Below, in pieces: positions 523 to 24,660 of a stretch of 24,660 nucleotides of DNA (position 1 is its first letter; every line of letters starts with the position of its first letter). The position numbers were made by a program, and so were the translations under genes. The notes under the pieces are model-generated. The model searched no databases and was not told the DNA's origin. It saw nothing but the letters and a program-made list of their open reading frames with translations. Origin of the DNA: a virus. Location: IMG/VR virus record IMGVR_UViG_3300025645_000432, positions 1 to 24,660 of that record; one strand, 5' to 3'.

Positions 523-591
523 ACTATTTCCTTTGCAAAGAAAACAGACATATGAACCTAATTGCTCATATATCTAAGTGTTAATAAATAC

Positions 592-4380: not shown

Positions 4381-4841
4381 AAGTCACCTCCTACGTGCTT
4401 CCACGTGACTCTGTTAATTATGTTATCTACTGATTGTCTACATACACCAAATAGTTTAGCTATCTTTACATTTGGTATATAACTAGTTAATTCTCTCATC
4501 TGTTTTACATCCTGTTCTGATAATATACCGTTTTTAGCTTCTCCGCGAACTTGTCTTGACTTACTTACTTTGTCCGCCATGTTATCTGCTTGAGTGCCTT
4601 GTTGGAGATGTTTGGGATTTACACAACTTGGGTTGTCGCAAGTATGTAATACAACACTACCTCTCTTTAGGTCTGCACTGACTAAATCATACGCTTTCCT
4701 ATGTGCTTTGTGTCGTAGTTGTCCTTCACGAACATGCCCGTACCCATCTCTATCTAATGCACCACTCCAAGGAACACACTCTTGTATGTTGTACTGTACG
4801 CACAACTCAGTTATGTGTGTCAATTCTTGTAGTTGGTTCAT
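4368..4841 (-). CDS. HNH homing-type endonuclease
   Basis: I chose the ATG at 4841 because a GGAG site lies 8 nt upstream, giving 157 aa. The middle shows the HNH_3-type core: VPWSGALDRDGYGHVR, then KAHRKAYDL, then VVLHTCDNPSCVNPKHL and GTQADNMADK. The C-terminal third (VKIAKLFGVCRQSVDNIINR) looks like a helix-turn-helix DNA-binding unit. Such free-standing endonucleases cut DNA and spread by repair into intergenic sites of related phages. It sits between two genes that are normally close together, overlapping the cupin-like gene by 35 nt and the AUC-start gene by 13 nt. This suggests it is an insertion. Cleavage has not been shown. Confidence 0.88.
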   Translation of the reverse strand: MNQLQELTHITELCVQYNIQECVPWSGALDRDGYGHVREGQLRHKAHRKAYDLVSADLKRGSVVLHTCDNPSCVNPKHLQQGTQADNMADKVSKSRQVRGEAKNGILSEQDVKQMRELTSYIPNVKIAKLFGVCRQSVDNIINRVTWKHVGGDLSLG

Positions 4842-5450: not shown

Positions 5451-7853
5451 CTAACCGAAGAAATATTCGGCAGCCGTTATTTCGTGTATATCGTATGTAC
5501 CTGTTGGTGGCATAGTATTTGTATCTATACCTAACTGGTTGGCCCAGTCTACTAGTGGGTCTGACGTAGTATATAAGTCTAAGAAGGCTATTCTAATCTT
5601 ATCAAATAGTTTCTGTGTGTGTCCCGCATGTGTACCGAAGTCATCGTGTATCATAGCAAGGCATTCATCACCCATCTCATTGATTGTCATAACCATGTGC
5701 GTACTGTCGATAGAGTGTACAAAGTTTGGTGCTATACCATTCCGTTGGCCTACTCTATTAGGTGTTGCATCTTCAAAGTTCTGAAGCCACAAACGACACC
5801 CGCCATTTAGTTGTGTTCTTATTTCTATACTGTTTGTCTTCTGGTAATATTGGTATACTGGGAAACCGATTGGCGTTAACCAAGCTACAAAGTCCTTTGG
5901 TATACTCTTCTGTAACCAGCTCATAGCTCCTCTAGCAGCAATAACTACTTCTCCTATAGATTCCCATAAGATAGGTGTTAGGAATTTGGCCATCTCGAAC
6001 TGTAGTTTGTCATCTAAGTCAAACTTTGTCCAATTCTCCAATACATATTCCATTATATACTGTCTAGCAGACTGCTGAGTCGCACCATAAGGTAGCGTCA
6101 TTACAGGTCTTTTAGTACAATACCTATCGATACCTACTCGCAACCAGACTTTTGCATACGGGTGGTCCATACATCGAAGCTTTTCTGTAGTAACTGTAGC
6201 GACTTCACCGTAAATATCGGCTGGGGTGTCTGAGTTTGATAAGTTTGTTGCTTTAGCTCCAACACCGTCTCTTAGCATTGCTGAGAAATGTTGCAACCCA
6301 TTACAACTGCCGTCAAGTCCCACTGGGATTCTGCCCACTGCCTTAACATTTCTTCCGTAGTCACAGTTTGCCCATTCGAAACAGAATGCTAGGAATTGGT
6401 ATGGTTTGTCAGCACTGCCCCAGAAGTCTCTGTACCCAATTGGGTCGTTAACTGTACGTTTGATAAAGTCTTCTTGTGACTGAATCCACGTAACTCTGTC
6501 TGCGTAACTGCATTTGTCTTCGCCAAAAGTATTTGCTCCTTGTATAGCTAACCACTTAACACCCTCTGTACCTAGTACAACGTCCTTAGCAAAGCATAGT
6601 AAGCCTTTAGCGGTATCTGCACCCTGTGGCGACAGTCCTGCTGTAGCACAGTATATACGTCCTCTGAAGTCGCAGTTGTATGCGTAGTAAAACTCGTCCC
6701 ACTCAGATAGTTCAAGGGCTAATTTACTAGTTCTAATGTAGGATAATACTTGGCCTTTGCGCTGGTTTTCTCTACCGTATGCCGCTTTGGCTATTTCTTT
6801 CCACATAGTAACTTCTTCGAGTTGTGCTTCGTTTAGATTCTCCTTCTTCAATTCCTTTAAGTGTTCAGGGAATGATGGTATCTCTATACGTTCACTTGAT
6901 GGCATACCTATTGATAAATTCTTATCGTAGATTGTGCGCTGTACTTCTAATACTTCTTTGTTAATTTTCCAAGGTGTTTGTTGTAACTTGTTTAATGCCT
7001 CTCTATGTTGTACTGGGTCATGTTGGGATACGTAATTTCTAGCATCTCCTTTCTGAGCCTTTATCAACGGTAGTTGTGAGTTCATCTGGTGTGTGTAGTA
7101 GACTGAGTTTGTTAGGTTATCAGTCCAATCATTTGGTGGTATTTTAAGAGGTAGTAAGAAGGGGAACATAAATCCTCTCTCTTTCTCAAACTCTGCTGCC
7201 CAATCATCAAATGCTACTGTTGTCTCTAAATGGTATGTTGTCTTCTTAGCTGCACGTTTAAGGTCCATGAATAGGACATCATTAAATACATGTAAGATTG
7301 CTGTTAGTACACGTTGGCCAGCATGGGCTTTGTATAGCTGTGACCACTCATTCCAATCATAACCGAATTGGTTAAACTTCAGGTTCATAACTTTGTGCAT
7401 GTGTGTGAAGTCAGTTATATTCTGTTGTGAAAATGATTTTTTCACCGTTCCATAATATTCTGGATTCTGTGCTTCAAACAGTTGGCATTTTAAATCAGAC
7501 TCTAATCGAGTACCAATATTCATACATACGTTTATTATCTTATTATTCTTACGTTCTTGTACAGCACCTATTACTACACGTAAACCAATGTAAGCTATCT
7601 TGAGATAGTCTTCGTCCATTGCTACTTGTTTGAGTAGTGCGTTGTACTTATTTGCTCTACCAGCACCTCTAGTGTTGGCCATAGTTTCTAATCGGGTTGC
7701 TACATCCTGTAGTCGATTCTTTAATAAATAAGAGCCGACATCAGTTTGGTCCGATTGGCCAGAGTCGCGTAAGCGGTCTTGGTTTGCATAATACCGCTCC
7801 GTTCCTCTTTCTAGACATTCTCTTTCCCAAGCTATTTGGTCGGCTATATTCAT
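5451..7853 (-). CDS. T7-type single-subunit RNA polymerase, late position (RNAP1)
   Basis: I place the start at ATG 7853, with AAGGTG 5 nt upstream, giving 800 aa (T7 RNAP has 883). All catalytic motifs are present: YNCDFRGRIY near 393; motif A GLDGSCNGLQHFSAML with Asp514; motif B RYCTKRPVMTLPYG with Arg577, Lys581 and Tyr589; GIAPNFVHSID; and motif C MIHDDFGTHAG with His736-Asp737. These correspond to T7 Asp537, Lys631, Tyr639 and Asp812. The protein ends in FFG rather than the FAFA foot of T7. The gene lies between DNA metabolism and structural genes, as in phiKMV-like phages, so it likely transcribes the virion genes. It is the second such enzyme in the window; see 19410-21443. Confidence 0.96.
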   Translation of the reverse strand: MNIADQIAWERECLERGTERYYANQDRLRDSGQSDQTDVGSYLLKNRLQDVATRLETMANTRGAGRANKYNALLKQVAMDEDYLKIAYIGLRVVIGAVQERKNNKIINVCMNIGTRLESDLKCQLFEAQNPEYYGTVKKSFSQQNITDFTHMHKVMNLKFNQFGYDWNEWSQLYKAHAGQRVLTAILHVFNDVLFMDLKRAAKKTTYHLETTVAFDDWAAEFEKERGFMFPFLLPLKIPPNDWTDNLTNSVYYTHQMNSQLPLIKAQKGDARNYVSQHDPVQHREALNKLQQTPWKINKEVLEVQRTIYDKNLSIGMPSSERIEIPSFPEHLKELKKENLNEAQLEEVTMWKEIAKAAYGRENQRKGQVLSYIRTSKLALELSEWDEFYYAYNCDFRGRIYCATAGLSPQGADTAKGLLCFAKDVVLGTEGVKWLAIQGANTFGEDKCSYADRVTWIQSQEDFIKRTVNDPIGYRDFWGSADKPYQFLAFCFEWANCDYGRNVKAVGRIPVGLDGSCNGLQHFSAMLRDGVGAKATNLSNSDTPADIYGEVATVTTEKLRCMDHPYAKVWLRVGIDRYCTKRPVMTLPYGATQQSARQYIMEYVLENWTKFDLDDKLQFEMAKFLTPILWESIGEVVIAARGAMSWLQKSIPKDFVAWLTPIGFPVYQYYQKTNSIEIRTQLNGGCRLWLQNFEDATPNRVGQRNGIAPNFVHSIDSTHMVMTINEMGDECLAMIHDDFGTHAGHTQKLFDKIRIAFLDLYTTSDPLVDWANQLGIDTNTMPPTGTYDIHEITAAEYFFG

Positions 7854-7854
7854 G

Positions 7855-8238
7855 TTACACCTTATTCTTAGCCCTAACTGCACGAGCTTTCTTGTTACGT
7901 GCTAATCGCTTTTCATCTTCAGTCTTGTGGCTTGGATGTAAGTAATTGTATTTAGGTGTCTTGTGTTCATCCAAGTACTTACCTAACCCTATTACATATT
8001 TCTCAGCCGATATACCGGTATGCCCTCTCTGTGCTAATTTCTTAACACGGCCCTCTATGCCATTACACGAGTTGTGTAAGGCCCCTCGTATGTATCCTTT
8101 AGTGTGACAATGGTCTAGCACAGCTACATCACGTTGGGTGAATGGGTGTCCACATATGGCGCACTTACCGCCCTGTTTCTTTACGACTTGAGAGAGCACA
8201 CCGGAGACCTGTGTGGTCTTTAGTCTGGTGACTGACAT
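7855..8238 (-). CDS. Endonuclease VII (Holliday-junction resolvase)
   Basis: The 127-aa protein has the endonuclease VII fold signature: CAICGHPF (zinc knuckle 1, near residues 27-34), LDHCHTKGYIRGALHNSCN (catalytic beta-beta-alpha region with Asp-His, and zinc knuckle 2), then EGRVKKL. T4 gp49 and related phage enzymes resolve branched DNA before packaging; in T7 the unrelated gp3 does this job. The C-terminus is Arg/Lys/Ala rich, suited to DNA contact. The ATG overlaps the TAA of the 88-aa gene (TAATG), and the gene ends 2 nt after the RNAP1 start codon. Confidence 0.9.
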   Translation of the reverse strand: MSVTRLKTTQVSGVLSQVVKKQGGKCAICGHPFTQRDVAVLDHCHTKGYIRGALHNSCNGIEGRVKKLAQRGHTGISAEKYVIGLGKYLDEHKTPKYNYLHPSHKTEDEKRLARNKKARAVRAKNKV

Positions 8239-18968: not shown

Positions 18969-19303
18969 TTGAATTCCTCTGTTAATTGCCCCTCTACCCA
19001 TTCTAGGCAGAACTTTGCCATTTCTAATCGTTGCTTACCGTGAGTGGTGCGACGGTCGTGTTTACGGTTGTTGAGTGTATATCCTGTATAGTCTCCCTCA
19101 ATTGGGAATACACAGTTGCGTTTACCTGCCCAAGCTCGTTTTACTTCACTTGGAAAGTCTTGGCCTAATATGTCTGCACATATGCCAATGCCGTTATTCT
19201 CTTTATAATGACCTCTGATGTAACGTACTAACATGTTGTATGTATTCACCATATCATACTCGGTCATCTCGTGTGGTATGTCTTTTAAATCTAATATTGC
19301 CAT
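18965..19303 (-). CDS. 112-aa unknown protein, first gene after the early terminator
   Basis: ATG 19303 has GAGG 8 nt upstream. The soluble product has MAILDLKDIPHEMTEYDMVN at the start, then VRYIRGHYKENNGIGICADI, and KHDRRTTHGKQRLEMAKFCLEW near the end. It is the first gene downstream of the strong terminator at 19327-19349, only 23 nt away, so it would be expressed by read-through or from a promoter inside the end of the RNAP2 region. The function is not recognised. Confidence 0.7.
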   Translation of the reverse strand: MAILDLKDIPHEMTEYDMVNTYNMLVRYIRGHYKENNGIGICADILGQDFPSEVKRAWAGKRNCVFPIEGDYTGYTLNNRKHDRRTTHGKQRLEMAKFCLEWVEGQLTEEFK

Positions 19304-19326
19304 TGGTGTGTCCTCGCTTGAACATG

Positions 19327-19349
19327 AAAAAAGGGGCCGAAGCCCCTTT
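19327..19349 (-). terminator. Strong rho-independent early terminator after RNAP2
   Basis: On the minus strand GGGGC, a UUCG-type tetraloop and GCCCC are followed by six T, with an A-rich segment (AAA) completing the stem. This is the classic bacterial terminator form, so host RNA polymerase should stop here. In T7 the equivalent early terminator TE also lies downstream of the RNA polymerase gene. The opposite strand has only a short T-run, so it is directed to the minus strand. Confidence 0.88.
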
Positions 19350-19351
19350 GA

Positions 19352-19399
19352 TTATTTAAGAAATACTACCAAACCGTTTACTACGATATATGTTCTCAT
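19352..19399 (-). CDS. Possible 15-aa micropeptide before the terminator
   Basis: ATG 19399 has a modest ribosome site (AGGATAG) and reads MRTYIVVNGLVVFLK to a TAA that abuts the terminator stem. It is the only reading frame between RNAP2 and the terminator. It could be a tiny hydrophobic peptide, or translation here could influence the terminator, but a chance ORF is equally possible. Confidence 0.3.
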   Translation of the reverse strand: MRTYIVVNGLVVFLK

Positions 19400-19409
19400 G
19401 ATGTCTATC

Positions 19410-21443
19410 CTATGAAAAGATGTAAGTTGAATTAAGTGCTTCGCTTGCGTTATATCCACCAGCTCTGCGTTTAGCTACAAACTTAACAGGTTTAACTGCT
19501 AACTTGTCGCATACTTCAGTCATGATATCGAACTCATGAACTGCTACAAATTGTTCTCTGATTGCGCTGGCTGTGGTGAAGAAGTTACCAGCGTGTGAAC
19601 CGATTGAATCATGAACTGTTACTAGGTCATGGTTCAGTGAATTTACTACCATACGTAAATGCGTTGCATCTACACTGTGAATTAGATTTGGAGCCATAGC
19701 GCCACGTGTCTTGATTTCATCAAGCTTACCAACTGCACCAACTTTAACTGCATTAAAGCCACCTGCACGTACTCTGAAGTCCTCTATGTTAGTGTATTCG
19801 ATGTCACATACGAAACCATCCGCTGTAACCCATTGTGCTGAAGTTAATCCAGCTTCCATTGCCATTTCCATTCTGCGTGTTATTGCTGAAGTGAATGATT
19901 TAACTGCTGAAGCGTTTTGGTTTAATGCTTCCATGTACGCTTTACCGATTAATGAACCATGAAGTACATCTTCGCCTTTCTTAGCTAGGAATGCTTCAGT
20001 GTTAGCGATAACTGTATCTTCGCCAGCTCCATAACCTACAATCATTACAGGGTTTTTAGCCATGTTACGACCATATTTAGTTATTAGCTTCTGTACTTCA
20101 CCATCAGTGATAGTTGCTGCACAGTCTGCAATGATACCGTATATGTCACTTGGTACATCATCTTTAGTAGATGCTACGCAATTAACTGATACTGCTGTCT
20201 CACGGCTGCCCGTTATAGCTGCCATGTGTTGTAATCCGTTACATGTTCCGTCTTGATGACATACCAATGTTGATGTAACTGTAGCTGGGTCTGTATCTAA
20301 CGCTAGGATGCGATTGATTTCTAATATTGCTACAGTTGCTTGGAATGTATCTGCTTTTGGAAATGCTTGCATTACATCTTCAAAGTCTGTGATTGCTGCG
20401 AATGCACCACTGTCTATGTTCGACTGTACCCAACTGATACGGTCATTGATTGATATTTTGTCCATACCACATGCATTAGCTGTATGGATTGCTATGGCAT
20501 CGAAGCCTGTCTCGCCTAGTGCTACTGCATCAGCGAACTGAAATGCTGCTTTACAGAAGTCAGTGCCTTGTGGTGTAACTAAACCACCACGGTAGTACAT
20601 ACGTCCACGCTTATCCATTGTAATTGGGAAATGAACTGTACCAGTACATTTACTTACTGCACGATATACACGTGCGTCTTCATCAGTCACACCATACTCG
20701 GCTAGGTTATCTAGAAGTATGTCTGCTGCGTCCATCATAGCTGGTGATACTACAAACGATACTGCCTGTAGTTTGTTTACTGCTGCTAGCACTGCTGGTG
20801 CTATTGTCTTCTGCTTACTACCGTTAATGAGTTGAATCATTGCTGACTCATGTATTCCATTGTTGTTATCAGTCCAAGCGTTAGGTTGATTTGTTAAAGG
20901 TTTACATTTCATTGGTACGGCTGCTCTAAGCTCTTCGACCATATCACTTACTTCAAGTGCTGTTGCTTCAGTCAGTATATATACTTTACGTATCTTACCT
21001 TCTGATACTTCACGTGCTACCATCTTGGATGCTATGACACCTTGCCTAATCATTTCAGTTACGAAACGAGTTGTAATTGGTTTAAGAGACTCAGTAGACC
21101 ATACTGCTTTCATCTCTGTTTTAGCCCATGCTGCGAATAGTGCAGTAAGACCAAGGATTGTTACTGTACCTGTTTCTAAGGTACTTTGTAATGCTATTAA
21201 CCACATGATATCATTTAAGTCTTTATCAACTGTGATAAGTTCTCCACGTCCACCTGTGAATGATACTGATACGTCCTTCTCCAATACTAAACGAGGAACC
21301 AAACCAATCATTTGATTGACAAGTTTCTGTGCTGCTTGCATATCACCAATTGAATCACGAGCTATTTCAAGCTGAGTGTTGATTTCAGTAGTTAATGAAG
21401 TGTTAGTGTTAAGTGCAGTTCTTACAGAGTTTAATACGTTCAT
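19410..21443 (-). CDS. Second T7-type single-subunit RNA polymerase, early position (RNAP2)
   Basis: ATG 21443 (AAGG 11 nt upstream) gives 677 aa; longer in-frame forms begin inside a hairpin leader. The protein has the full catalytic set: ITMDKRGRMYYRGG with TPQGTDFCKAAFQF (near 275-305); motif A CHQDGTCNGLQHMAAI (Asp398); motif B GRNMAKNPVMIVGYG (Arg459, Lys463, Tyr471); AMAPNLIHSVDATHL; and motif C TVHDSIGSHAG with Asp612. It ends STYIFS. At 677 aa it is much shorter than T7 RNAP (883), the loss being in the N-terminal promoter-opening domain. It diverges clearly from RNAP1 and sits where T7 gene 1 sits, after three small early genes and before a strong terminator. It is likely made early by host polymerase. 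Confidence 0.95.
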   Translation of the reverse strand: MNVLNSVRTALNTNTSLTTEINTQLEIARDSIGDMQAAQKLVNQMIGLVPRLVLEKDVSVSFTGGRGELITVDKDLNDIMWLIALQSTLETGTVTILGLTALFAAWAKTEMKAVWSTESLKPITTRFVTEMIRQGVIASKMVAREVSEGKIRKVYILTEATALEVSDMVEELRAAVPMKCKPLTNQPNAWTDNNNGIHESAMIQLINGSKQKTIAPAVLAAVNKLQAVSFVVSPAMMDAADILLDNLAEYGVTDEDARVYRAVSKCTGTVHFPITMDKRGRMYYRGGLVTPQGTDFCKAAFQFADAVALGETGFDAIAIHTANACGMDKISINDRISWVQSNIDSGAFAAITDFEDVMQAFPKADTFQATVAILEINRILALDTDPATVTSTLVCHQDGTCNGLQHMAAITGSRETAVSVNCVASTKDDVPSDIYGIIADCAATITDGEVQKLITKYGRNMAKNPVMIVGYGAGEDTVIANTEAFLAKKGEDVLHGSLIGKAYMEALNQNASAVKSFTSAITRRMEMAMEAGLTSAQWVTADGFVCDIEYTNIEDFRVRAGGFNAVKVGAVGKLDEIKTRGAMAPNLIHSVDATHLRMVVNSLNHDLVTVHDSIGSHAGNFFTTASAIREQFVAVHEFDIMTEVCDKLAVKPVKFVAKRRAGGYNASEALNSTYIFS

Positions 21444-21467
21444 GAGATATATTACCTTAAAGTGTTT

Positions 21468-21479
21468 GGGCTTTTGCCC
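21468..21479 (-). promoter_or_regulatory. Hairpin just upstream of the RNAP2 ribosome site
   Basis: A perfect GGGC-TTTT-GCCC inverted repeat (plus strand) lies 25 nt upstream of the RNAP2 ATG and ends about 10 nt before its AAGG ribosome site. In the mRNA it is GGGC-AAAA-GCCC. It might stabilise the messenger or tune translation; the short stem makes the effect uncertain. Confidence 0.4.
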
Positions 21480-21508
21480 TTTAATCATTAAAATCATTAA
21501 GCGAGAGC

Positions 21509-21531
21509 GCAACGAAGTGTATCGACGTTGC
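21509..21531 (-). other. Second hairpin in the RNAP2 leader
   Basis: Inverted repeat GCAACG (21509-21514) and CGTTGC (21526-21531) with an 11-nt loop, in the 123-nt untranslated stretch between the 90-aa gene and RNAP2. It shares the 9-mer AACGAAGTG with the control-region repeat at 22258. An RNase III-like processing site, as between T7 early genes, is one possibility. Confidence 0.4.
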
Positions 21532-21566
21532 TTAAGAACTCTCTATTCTAACAGGATGTGTATTAC

Positions 21567-21839
21567 TTACTTGTCTTCCCCATTCATAATGGATTGATAT
21601 GACTCGATAGTACCAACTGCCGAGTTGTTATAGTGACGCTTGATGAAGTTGATTACTCTATGTGTTCTACTGAATCTCATGACTAGTTGCTCCAAAGGTA
21701 TGTTAGTTAATGTTACATGTTGTCCACAATAGCTCAATAAGCAAGCCACGTCCCCATCTACTCTAATGACCAAGTACTCTCTACTCTTACGTATTAAGTT
21801 CTTGAAGCATACTGTGTCACCAACCTCTATGTTACTCAT
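21567..21839 (-). CDS. 90-aa early protein, unknown
   Basis: ATG 21839 has GGGAG 7 nt upstream, giving 90 aa; the in-frame TTG at 21854 is not supported. The first half, MSNIEVGDTVCFKNLIRKSR.., then YLVIRVDGDVACLLSYCGQ, reads like a small SH3-type beta barrel. The second half is basic and helical (VMRFSRTHRVINFIKRHYNNS). As an early gene next to RNAP2 it may act on the host, but no family is recognised. Confidence 0.68.
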   Translation of the reverse strand: MSNIEVGDTVCFKNLIRKSREYLVIRVDGDVACLLSYCGQHVTLTNIPLEQLVMRFSRTHRVINFIKRHYNNSAVGTIESYQSIMNGEDK

Positions 21840-21840
21840 G

Positions 21841-21939
21841 TTATATACTCCCAATGTAAAGTGATAAGCTTGTGAATAAGGCTATGATAACGATTGTAAC
21901 TATTGCTGCTAAGTCTGCGTTGTTATGCCAATTCTTCAT
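21841..21939 (-). CDS. 32-aa single-TM early micropeptide
   Basis: ATG 21939 overlaps the TGA of the 71-aa gene (ATGA), with AGGGG 8 nt upstream. The product begins MKNWHNNADL and continues AAIVTIVIIALFTSLSLYIG SI, one clear transmembrane helix. It fills the space between two genes exactly and its TAA is one base from the next ATG. Short membrane peptides in phage early regions can alter the host envelope or exclude other phages; the role here is unknown. Confidence 0.62.
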   Translation of the reverse strand: MKNWHNNADLAAIVTIVIIALFTSLSLYIGSI

Positions 21940-22151
21940 ACTGTGTACCCCTGTGCTAAGTAGCTCTTATACAGTTCACGACCAGACTGTATTGTGTAGT
22001 TCATCTTAGGTGTATCTGTCCATGGCCCACCTAGTGTATCCTCATTGTCCCATGTCTGACTACTCACTACGCATTGGTTGTGTGTTACAGTGAATGCTAC
22101 AGTGTGTGTGTTACCTAGTGATGTGTTGGTTAGATAGTGTGTGATGTTCAT
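21936..22151 (-). CDS. 71-aa first early protein, unknown
   Basis: ATG 22151 has AAGGT 8 nt upstream and is the first gene after the 379-nt control region. The product MNITHYLTNTSLGNTHTVAF.. is beta-like and Thr/Asn-rich, with DNEDTLGGPWTDTPKMNY in the middle and a C-terminal helix (SGRELYKSYLAQG). There is no signal or membrane segment. The first gene of a T7-like early operon often encodes an anti-host factor (T7 gene 0.3 blocks restriction), but no similarity is visible. Confidence 0.68.
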   Translation of the reverse strand: MNITHYLTNTSLGNTHTVAFTVTHNQCVVSSQTWDNEDTLGGPWTDTPKMNYTIQSGRELYKSYLAQGYTV

Positions 22152-22229
22152 GATGGTGATACCTTATGTAATGAGTGATACGAAAAGAGACATATCAGCT
22201 CGTAAGCCCACCCATCCCGATTGATGAAC

Positions 22230-22233
22230 GATC
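22230..22233. other. Only GATC site found in the window
   Basis: By reading through the whole window this is the single GATC found; it lies in the control region 79 nt upstream of the first early start codon. See the finding on GATC avoidance. Confidence 0.75.
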
Positions 22234-22255
22234 CTTACACAAACCAGACTAAACA

Positions 22256-22297
22256 CGAACGAAGTGAGTCCTTCTTGTGTGAGCGAACGCAGTGAGT
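22256..22297. repeat. Pair of 14-nt direct repeats in the control region
   Basis: CGAACGAAGTGAGT (22256-22269) and CGAACGCAGTGAGT (22284-22297) differ at one base and are spaced 28 nt start to start. A related AACGAAGTG occurs in the RNAP2 leader at 21511. They could be binding sites for a protein or parts of an origin. Confidence 0.6.
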
Positions 22298-22340
22298 GAA
22301 TGGATGGCCCAAGGGGGAATTACAAAGTTGACGTCAAGAC

Positions 22341-22449
22341 GGAGTACCACTCCATATAAGGATTTAATTTTTCAAAATAGTGATATTACGGATAGAGTGG
22401 AGGGTGAAACCCTGTCTTAGTTCCTTGTGGGAAATATATGATTCCCCAC
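22341..22449 (-). other. Cluster of three hairpins in the early leader
   Basis: GGAGT-ACC-ACTCC (22341-22353), AGGGT-GAA-ACCCT (22401-22413) and an 8-bp stem with one G-U pair (22427-22434 with 22442-22449) lie within 110 nt. None is followed by a long T-run on the minus strand, so they are unlikely to be plain terminators. They would form a structured 5' leader if transcription begins at the TATAAT box. Confidence 0.55.
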
Positions 22450-22461
22450 GCTGGGTCGTAC

Positions 22462-22491
22462 ACTCTAAATTATAGGACCCTTGTGATGTCA
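22462..22491 (-). promoter_or_regulatory. Candidate host sigma-70 promoter (perfect -10)
   Basis: A perfect TATAAT lies at 22474-22469 on the minus strand, pointing to the early genes. The -35 region at 17-nt spacing is poor (AATCAA), and there is no TG extension. A second TATAAT at 22535-22530 overlaps the end of the 81-aa gene. One of these is the best candidate for host-driven early transcription, but neither is a full promoter match. Confidence 0.35.
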
Positions 22492-22512
22492 TTGATTTAT
22501 ATAGAGTTTATA

Positions 22513-22529
22513 TGGTCATATTTTGACCA
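22513..22529. promoter_or_regulatory. Palindrome, possible operator
   Basis: TGGTCA (22513-22518) and TGACCA (22524-22529) form a perfect inverted repeat with a 5-nt AT spacer. It lies between two TATAAT boxes, immediately downstream of the one at 22535-22530, which is where a repressor site would sit. It could instead be a short RNA hairpin. The binding protein is unknown. Confidence 0.45.
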
Positions 22530-22530
22530 A

Positions 22531-22776
22531 TTATAGTCTAAATGTCTTATTTATTGTCTGTTCTGGGGTTCTACGTTCCCATGTTGCTGATGTTATACCT
22601 TGTGTTTTAAGGTGTTGTTTTATCTCTCTCCAATCAGCTCTGGTTATACCTATTCCTAAGCCAATTATGTGTACTGTCTTACCTGAGTAGATTAGATTGC
22701 AGCTACTTGTGAATGTGGTTGCTGTTTCTCCGAATCTGTATAGCTCTATAATGTCCTGTAAGCGTTGTGCTGCCAT
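22531..22776 (-). CDS. 81-aa unknown protein
   Basis: ATG 22776 is preceded by AAAGGAA (9 nt). The product MAAQRLQDIIELYRFGETAT.. has a beta stretch (LIYSGKTVHIIGLGIGI), then a helix and a basic end (ATWERRTPEQTINKTFRL). It is the last gene before the control region. The function is not recognised. Its position after the tail gene would fit a late or packaging-related gene if the genome end lies in the control region, which cannot be shown. Confidence 0.68.
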   Translation of the reverse strand: MAAQRLQDIIELYRFGETATTFTSSCNLIYSGKTVHIIGLGIGITRADWREIKQHLKTQGITSATWERRTPEQTINKTFRL

Positions 22777-22790
22777 TATTGTATGTTCCT

Positions 22791-23285
22791 TTACCAGTCG
22801 GGTACTTCTTCATCCTCATCCCAGTCATCATTGTATTCTAAATCGTTTAATGTCAGTAGTTGTAGTGATTGTAATACGGATTCTATTACTGTAATGTATG
22901 TACGGCAGTGACGGTCACCATAACCATACTCCCAAGATACTAACTTAGCATGGATTACTTCATGTGTTGTTAATAGGTGTACAATTACTGATTGTAGTAC
23001 TTTGAGTCCATTGTGTGTATCAGCAGACTCGAACTGCTTTATAATGCTCTTAATACGGTCTAGACAGTCCTTGTCCAGTACTTTACCATGTGCGGTATTG
23101 GTTACCATGCGTGGCTGCTTACCGTAGGCCATACGCTTCTTCTCACGGTCTATACGTGATTGCTCTTGTATATTAATGTGTCGGAAGCTCTTGCCATACT
23201 TGATTAGCATCTTGCGCTCAAAACGAGGCAGGTTTGGTATGATAGGCTCTCCGCTTACATACTTAGTAAACTCTGCTTCGTTCAT
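22791..23285 (-). CDS. 164-aa unknown protein
   Basis: ATG 23285 has AAGGAG 6 nt upstream. The N-terminal 70 residues are basic and charged (RFERKMLIKYGKSFRHINIQ, RIDREKKRMAYGKQ). The middle is helical, with TTHEVIHAKLVSWEYGYGDR (an HExxH-like but incomplete HEVIH), and the C-terminus is very acidic (YNDDWDEDEEVPDW). HEVIH matches the HExxH zinc-protease pattern by letters, but no third ligand is evident and there is no other support for a protease. No family is recognised. Confidence 0.7.
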   Translation of the reverse strand: MNEAEFTKYVSGEPIIPNLPRFERKMLIKYGKSFRHINIQEQSRIDREKKRMAYGKQPRMVTNTAHGKVLDKDCLDRIKSIIKQFESADTHNGLKVLQSVIVHLLTTHEVIHAKLVSWEYGYGDRHCRTYITVIESVLQSLQLLTLNDLEYNDDWDEDEEVPDW

Positions 23286-23294
23286 GATTGCTCC

Positions 23295-23534
23295 TTATGT
23301 GTATTCTATTTTACCTAATACTACTTCGGCTACACCAGTTATGATGGCACGAATCCTACACTTTGGTAGGGCTAAGTACTTGGTTGTTGTTGCTACGAAA
23401 AACTCATCGTCTAAGGTCACATATGGTGAACCTTCTACTGATACTTGTAAACTAACGTCACCAGATGTAATAGCAGCCACTAATAAGTGGCTACCCTTCT
23501 CAAGTGGTTTGTCTACGTTATGTTCTAATATCAT
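23295..23534 (-). CDS. 79-aa beta-rich protein, probably virion-associated
   Basis: I use ATG 23534, because GAGG is 7 nt upstream of it; the earlier ATG at 23540 abuts the ribosome site. The product MILEHNVDKPLEKGSHLLVA.. is nearly all beta by appearance (DVSLQVSVEGSPYVTLDDEF), with no membrane segment. It overlaps the tail gene by 17 nt. Small beta-sandwich proteins after tail genes are often structural; that is an inference from position. Confidence 0.66.
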   Translation of the reverse strand: MILEHNVDKPLEKGSHLLVAAITSGDVSLQVSVEGSPYVTLDDEFFVATTTKYLALPKCRIRAIITGVAEVVLGKIEYT

Positions 23535-24660
23535 ATCCATCCCTCATTGTTGTTCTATATACATCTGACATTACATCTCTGTACACTGTGTTTAAGCTTA
23601 ATACGACTGTTCCGCCTAGTACTGTAGTCCTACCCATAGTTTCCCCAGTATGTGCACTAACTACAGATATAGTCTGTTCGTATGCTAACTCTGGGTTACC
23701 TACAATCTCTTCTGAGGTAATACTAGATACTAGTACAACACTCTGAGATAACAAGCTGATTAGACCTAGGGCCTCCTCTGTTGTTATACTTTCGGTTGTT
23801 AGTGCTGTTGCACCTACTAATAGGTTAGGGTCTCCTATGACCTCCTGAGAGGTCATACTCTCTGGTGCTAGTAGTGTTGCACCACTAGACAGGTTAACGT
23901 CGCCTATGGCTTCCTCAGAGGCTATACCAATTGCTGTTACTGTTACTAGACCTGTGGCTAAACTGGGAGTACCGAAGTTCTCTTCAGATGCTATAGCTGT
24001 TGGTGTTAGTATTTGTGTAGCTGGCCCACCACCTTCGTCAGCAGCAGTCCACCATGCACCTACGGCAGATTGGTTGTCATATTCTACGTCTAAATATGCC
24101 TGACTGGGTGCAAAATTGTAAAGTTTGAAATAAATAGCATCCCCATCCAGCCAAGAGAATGGCGTACTATCTGCATCAGTACCTACTGTAAACCTGTTTA
24201 GAGTTGGAGTTGTCACAGCAGTTGTATTAGTTACGAAGGCTGAACTGTCAATCGTTATTTTGCGAGAACTTGCAGACTCATACACGCCAGCGCAAAACCT
24301 AAATCCACCAGTCAAGGGGTTTATACCACTGTCGGCTGTACGCGTCACTCCATCATATGACTGAGCCAACAAACTATTTGAAACGGAGCTGGTAGATACC
24401 CTATGGAATCTATTTGTTACAGACTTGTCTGCAACTCCCATCACTGTATCACCGAGTACATCAAAATCACACCACACAGACATAGCGAATGGATGTGAGA
24501 TGGAAGACAATAGTGCGTCAATCCTAGAACTTACTCCGTTGAACCTGACGGATGGGATTCCATTAAATGTCGCCCCCGCGCCTAAATTAGCATTGGTTAA
24601 AGTAGTGTTACCTGTCCTGTCAGTTACCCCATCCGTTGTAACTACATGATAATCAACCCA
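23518..24660 (-). CDS. Tail or fibre protein with LamG-like domain and tandem repeats, 5' end cut by window edge
   Basis: The frame is open through the window edge, so the TTG at 24510 is not the start and the N-terminus is missing. The visible N-terminal 190 residues have the landmarks of a laminin-G/concanavalin-type domain: a DRTGNTTLTNANLGAGATF stretch, SVRFNGVSSRIDALL, and a late YFKLYNFAPSQAYLDVEYDN. Six degenerate 22-24-aa repeats follow, then a short basic end (YRTTMRDGYDIRT). Such proteins are usually virion-exposed and bind cell-surface sugars. It lies just before three small genes and the control region. Confidence 0.8.
   Translation of the reverse strand, partial: WVDYHVVTTDGVTDRTGNTTLTNANLGAGATFNGIPSVRFNGVSSRIDALLSSISHPFAMSVWCDFDVLGDTVMGVADKSVTNRFHRVSTSSVSNSLLAQSYDGVTRTADSGINPLTGGFRFCAGVYESASSRKITIDSSAFVTNTTAVTTPTLNRFTVGTDADSTPFSWLDGDAIYFKLYNFAPSQAYLDVEYDNQSAVGAWWTAADEGGGPATQILTPTAIASEENFGTPSLATGLVTVTAIGIASEEAIGDVNLSSGATLLAPESMTSQEVIGDPNLLVGATALTTESITTEEALGLISLLSQSVVLVSSITSEEIVGNPELAYEQTISVVSAHTGETMGRTTVLGGTVVLSLNTVYRDVMSDVYRTTMRDGYDIRT
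23590..24005 (-). repeat. Six tandem 22-24-aa repeats in the tail protein
   Basis: The repeats share a pattern of I-A/T-S-E-E-x-x-G-x-P-x-L-x-x-G followed by four to six hydrophobic-alternating residues; examples begin IASEENFGTPSL, IASEEAIGDVNL, MTSQEVIGDPNL and ITSEEIVGNPEL. The last copy is degenerate (HTGETMG). DNA copies are diverged, so the array is old or under selection. This looks like a beta-rich stalk. Confidence 0.75.

Follow-up and report, generated by a model that had tools for sequence, protein, structure and literature searches.

A non-coding gap in a partial viral genome: the probable concatemer junction of a two-polymerase autographivirus

The DNA analysed here, which we call the window, comprises the 24,660 bases of an IMG/VR virus record and represents a partial genome. 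Its main genes are encoded leftward, by the minus strand. Read in that direction, a tail-like protein and small ORFs are followed by a non-coding gap of 379 bases, further small ORFs, a single-subunit RNA polymerase of the early region (RNAP2; 19410-21512, minus strand, 700 aa, phrog_414, Pfam RNA_pol) with an intrinsic-terminator-like hairpin behind it (19327-19352, minus strand), a primase and a helicase. The order continues with a metallophosphoesterase, a DNA polymerase, an exonuclease, a second single-subunit RNA polymerase (RNAP1; 5451-7883, minus strand), located before the portal gene, and the scaffold, capsid and tail genes. The gap is flanked by minus-strand ORFs at 22531-22776 and 21936-22151, the latter being the first small early ORF (71 aa). 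The gap thus separates the late side of the genome, here a tail-like gene, from the early operon with RNAP2, which is the placement expected of a T7-type junction. Searches of the window against Rfam (E<=5) and for tRNA or tmRNA gave no match in the gap, and a distant blastn search with 21500-23300 against 50,697 phage records gave no match.

The closest named phages are the Alteromonas phages vB_AspP-H4/4 (H4/4) and vB_AmeP_R8W (R8W). Both belong to the genus Foturvirus, and two polymerases are annotated in either genome. They share with the window these two polymerases and the gene order around the gap, although the window RNAP2 is only 47 and 45% identical to those of H4/4 and R8W, and its RNAP1 is ~57-58% identical to those of the two Foturvirus members. 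The terminase gene lies directly upstream of the gap in H4/4, R8W and the related L003, and falls outside the window contig. Another relative, L002, gives some minor observations. Its RNAP2 is 99.8% identical to that of the window (window 19179-21544), while the blocks upstream are only ~87-91% identical. Two small ORFs of the window, including that of 71 aa, are missing in L002, and the drop of identity at this place marks a mosaic breakpoint. Before the junction, at a similar spot, both carry accessory proteins unrelated to each other: a weakly Laminin_G_3-like tail protein in the window (23518-24660, minus strand) and a 909-aa esterase/PKD protein in L002 (1232-3961).

The gap had been described as a structured region with a density of hairpins and palindromes not seen elsewhere in the genome. 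The elements themselves are present. Hairpins lie at 22341-22353 (GGAGT/ACTCC stem), 22401-22413 and 22513-22529 (with TGGTCA/TGACCA), and we found a fourth at 22429-22446. There are also a 10-nt palindrome, TTGACGTCAA, at 22328-22337, two TATAAT boxes on the minus strand (read as ATTATA on the plus strand, one at 22469 and one at 22530, of which the latter crosses the edge of the interval) and the direct repeats CGAACG[A/C]AGTGAGT, a pair of CGAACGNAGTGAGT, at 22256 and 22284 (22256-22297). Their density is unusual only to a slight degree, and it does recur in the genome. Four hairpins compare with 1.27 on average over 300 dinucleotide-shuffled versions of the gap (fraction with at least four, 0.02), but at least four are also found in 6.1% of same-size windows across the genome. 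A 10-nt palindrome occurs at least once in 32% of the shuffles, and 21 are present in the genome, which is the level expected by chance. The density argument is therefore weak. As to folding energy, the gap ranks within the best 2.5% (plus strand) and 9.4% (minus strand) of genome windows, with z = -3.3 on the minus strand (60 shuffles).

More direct information comes from relatives with published genome ends. In H4/4 a terminal repeat is annotated at 1-217 (217 bp), which its authors derived from double coverage (PMC5658483). For R8W, 202-bp repeats determined by PhageTerm and a terminus have been published (PMC8228385), and this terminus corresponds to R8W bases 1-30 read as the reverse complement. 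An exact repeat copy at both record ends was found neither in H4/4 nor in R8W, so that each record apparently includes a single copy of the repeat. The left end of H4/4 lies two bases past ACTCC and its right end immediately before ATATGTCTCTTTT. The resulting boundary rule, left end 2 nt past GGTACTCC and right end before ATATGTCTCTTTT, yields 202 bp when applied to R8W, matching the published figure; this is one independent check. R22Y was considered as a further relative with possibly mapped ends; in its paper, R22Y is compared with a schitovirus.

Applied to the window, the same rule predicts a direct terminal repeat (DTR) of 143 bp at 22196-22338 (minus strand), in single copy as in a concatemer, with the direct repeats mentioned above inside it. 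It is preceded by a left-end block ending in GGTACTCCGT (22339-22383, minus strand), which contains the first of the hairpins. The left genome end is thus predicted between 22339 and 22338, and the exact physical ends of the window's phage would follow those of its relatives. Since the published ends of two relatives sit on motifs that are ordered alike in the window, the suggestion in the original prediction that the region marks a packaging terminus is well supported. In our view the gap most probably represents the concatemer junction, with one DTR copy, of a two-polymerase autographivirus. To the complete T7-like arrangement predicted from the sequence, with right-end non-coding DNA, left cut, DTR of ~143 bp and early start, we assign a probability of about 0.88, and a junction with a DTR, taken by itself, appears nearly certain. 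The end rule would allow the physical ends of the uncultured phages of this group to be predicted from contigs alone.

We gathered 11 junctions without using the motif ATATGTCTCTTTT: those of the window, L002, L003, H4/4, R8W, G002, L034, L033, L028, L029 and L030. The RNAP2 locus of L032 was dropped, having only ~20 nt upstream. In all 11, the left-end block is followed by the CCCCC element, the right end and ATATGTCTCTTTT, in this order. The [TC]ACTCC left-end block is found in 11/11, as is the CCCCC element within the first 30 bases of the repeat, with CCCCCATAGG intact in seven. In the window, a C-rich element is present near the left end of the DTR, though degenerate: TTCCCCCTTGGG, a degenerate form of the TTTCCCCCATAGG element, lies ~20 nt inside the DTR (22308-22319, minus strand). 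ATATGTCTCTTTT, the first bases past the predicted right DTR end (22183-22195, minus strand), is exact in 10 of the 11 junctions, L028 carrying a variant. Compared with Foturvirus, the window therefore has the same left-end block, CCCCC element and ATATGTCTCTTTT at the right end, and differs in its degenerate CCCCCATAGG and in a shorter predicted DTR (143 bp against 217 bp in H4/4 and 202 bp in R8W). A scan of viral contigs for CCCAGATATGTCTCTTTT returned eight contigs, three of them new, and the same junction was found in all eight. Over all 14 junctions the predicted repeat length is 116-217 bp.

The elements that had first drawn attention to the gap behave differently. Only the window (1/11 junctions) carries the palindrome, only the window TGGTCA/TGACCA, and only the window a perfect GGAGT/ACTCC stem; AGGGTTTCACCCT occurs in 2/11. 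Because they are not conserved among the 11 junctions, we ruled out the perfect hairpins and the palindrome as functional parts, and a repressor site at TGGTCA/TGACCA is not supported. No support for a replication origin emerged either. The gap could still be an ordinary regulatory region (promoters, operator, origin) with no packaging role, in agreement with its two TATAAT boxes, its inverted repeats, its moderately stable fold and an upstream TATAAATCA/TATA block that may be a phage promoter. We find this very improbable, given that the published ends of two relatives fall inside the gap, that a sigma70 scan of the gap gave no site, and that the operator-like repeat and the palindrome are unique to the window.

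The predicted junction is ordinary in kind. T7, T3, SP6 and K1F, like the window as interpreted here, have a DTR between the late and early modules, a C-rich element near its left end and a short directional element at its right end. A CCCC-rich element followed by [A/G]TAG lies near the left end in T7, T3, SP6, K1F and phiKMV (5/5). At the right end, T7-type phages have ATCTGTT where the window has ATATGTCTCTTTT. In their sequence records, ATCTGTT forms the first bases past the repeat in T7 (DTR 160) and T3 (DTR 231); it lies one base earlier in SP6 (DTR 174), and K1F (DTR 178) has the close form TATCTGTAT at this boundary, while no pause-like site was found at the boundary of phiKMV (DTR 414). 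ATCTGTT is the class II terminator sequence, class II sites being known from the T7 concatemer junction (PMC11617373), and the polymerase-lysozyme complex pauses at the junction and engages terminase proteins, thus starting packaging (PMC3276506). It has also been reported that VSW-3 RNAP ignores ATCTGTT (PMC9624206), and phage polymerases need therefore not share one signal. The Tawavirus members JSF7 and phiV141, Vibrio phages, resemble the window group in their ACTCC left-end block followed by CCCCCATAGG and in giving two polymerase matches per genome for RNAP1; in the stretches read, neither ATATGTCTCTTTT nor ATCTGTT was found. The motif sequences are new as far as our literature search reached: no description of the junction motifs, including CCCCATAGG, was found in the titles and abstracts of one open-access literature library, and the H4/4 paper (PMC5658483) does not mention them.

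The position, orientation and conservation of ATATGTCTCTTTT are established. As its position and orientation are those of the T7 signal, the analogy suggests a T7-like pause-and-cut junction in which the pause element has been replaced by ATATGTCTCTTTT; that ATATGTCTCTTTT acts as a transcription pause element we regard as an even bet. By analogy with T7, genomes would be joined head to tail during infection, with one DTR between units. A phage RNA polymerase moving leftward in window coordinates would read through the DTR and pause at ATATGTCTCTTTT, just beyond it. The pause would recruit the terminase and the right end would be cut, whereupon the DTR would be duplicated and the left end cut two bases past GGTACTCC. 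Pausing and terminase contacts are transposed from T7 in this proposal, and either of the two polymerases may be the acting one. Alternatively, ATATGTCTCTTTT could be, at the same junction, a recognition site of the terminase small subunit and not a transcription pause. Repeated protein-binding sites are common near packaging cuts, and one to three copies of ATATGTCTCTTTT adjoin the cut site with irregular spacing. However, the T7 counterpart at the equal boundary is a transcription signal, and ATATGTCTCTTTT is pyrimidine-rich and directional, as class II signals are, so we consider a terminase site possible and yet rather doubtful. If ATATGTCTCTTTT is a pause element, the T7 pause-and-cut junction is suggested to be kept across autographiviruses with its pause sequence swapped, and it becomes testable which of the two phage-encoded polymerases links packaging to transcription.

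An early promoter had also been anticipated in the gap, and our scans do not bear it out. With a sigma70 position weight matrix, no site between the predicted left end and RNAP2 (21512-22338, minus strand, in the window) in 11 genomes exceeded the shuffle maximum, the G002 stretch ending at base 1150, near the RNAP2 start. Over the DTR and leader, 10 of 11 best scores, that of the window included, were below the shuffle mean; R8W was the sole exception, at about the 95th percentile of shuffles. In the T7 positive control, the three top sites were the annotated A1, A2 and A3 promoters, and A1-A3-like promoters of this type were not found behind the repeat of the window, unlike T7. As the matrix is crude, the missing sigma70 promoter of the early operon is a lead, not a proof. 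A repeated phage promoter did not emerge either: when the window, H4/4 and R8W were scanned for recurring 22-mers, counts were low, with four additional copies at most, and nothing resembled a promoter family, nor did T7-like CACTATA cores form one.

These results bear on another conceivable role of ATATGTCTCTTTT at the same junction: alone or in addition to the role proposed above, it could serve as a promoter for early genes or as an element in the leader of the first early RNA. In the window it stands 32 nt upstream of the first early ORF, and our scans gave no other early promoter. Such a role is nevertheless unlikely, ATATGTCTCTTTT being unlike a sigma70 promoter and its T7 counterpart not being a promoter. 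It is tempting to combine both ideas, although we consider the combination quite improbable: in this two-polymerase lineage, ATATGTCTCTTTT would have taken the place of the T7 pause site and be suited to one of the two phage-encoded polymerases, and the junction would also be where transcription first begins. As the early operon, including RNAP2, shows no host sigma70 promoter, its initial transcripts might arise at a phage-specific signal within the DTR or leader. The enzyme involved would be either a polymerase delivered together with the DNA or the host polymerase, acting on a type of promoter not described so far.

Upstream of the left end lies a TATAAATCA...CTATA block (22471-22501, minus strand), which could be a phage promoter or an origin. 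Seven of 14 records contain TATAAATCA followed by TATA within 45 nt, and all seven have it at the junction. A further match in G001 (at 4533) shares no more than the fixed letters. In G008 the block recurs in very similar form at 43498, within non-coding DNA ahead of an ORF that its zinc-binding-like start led us, by eye, to call primase-like, and this location argues for a phage promoter. That the block feeds transcription into the junction, like phiOR of T7, is a reasonable but weak proposal made by analogy. An IHF-assisted pac or cos site was also considered and rejected: WATCARNNNNTTR, the IHF site consensus, is present in the window with two mismatches and is exact in 2 of 11 junction blocks.

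ATATGTCTSTTTT gave 13 matches in 10 of 14 long records, four of the 14 being fragments in which RNAP2 was not seen; 11 matches lie at the junction, and the reversed control gave 0. The two copies away from it are of G type, one in the window (553-541, between the capsid and tail genes) and one in G004, at an equivalent place by blast coordinates. The window copy, ATATGTCTGTTTT (541-553, minus strand), stands behind a terminator-like hairpin and is nearer to T7's ATCTGTTTT than the junction copy is. Finally, an N4-type hairpin promoter (GGGC..GCCC before the right end) was discarded, since the window lacks the stem, which is present in 8 of 14 junctions. The near-identical junctions of L071 and L067 differ, a little ahead of the right DTR end, by an enlarged loop in the GGGC..GCCC hairpin, whose stem is retained.
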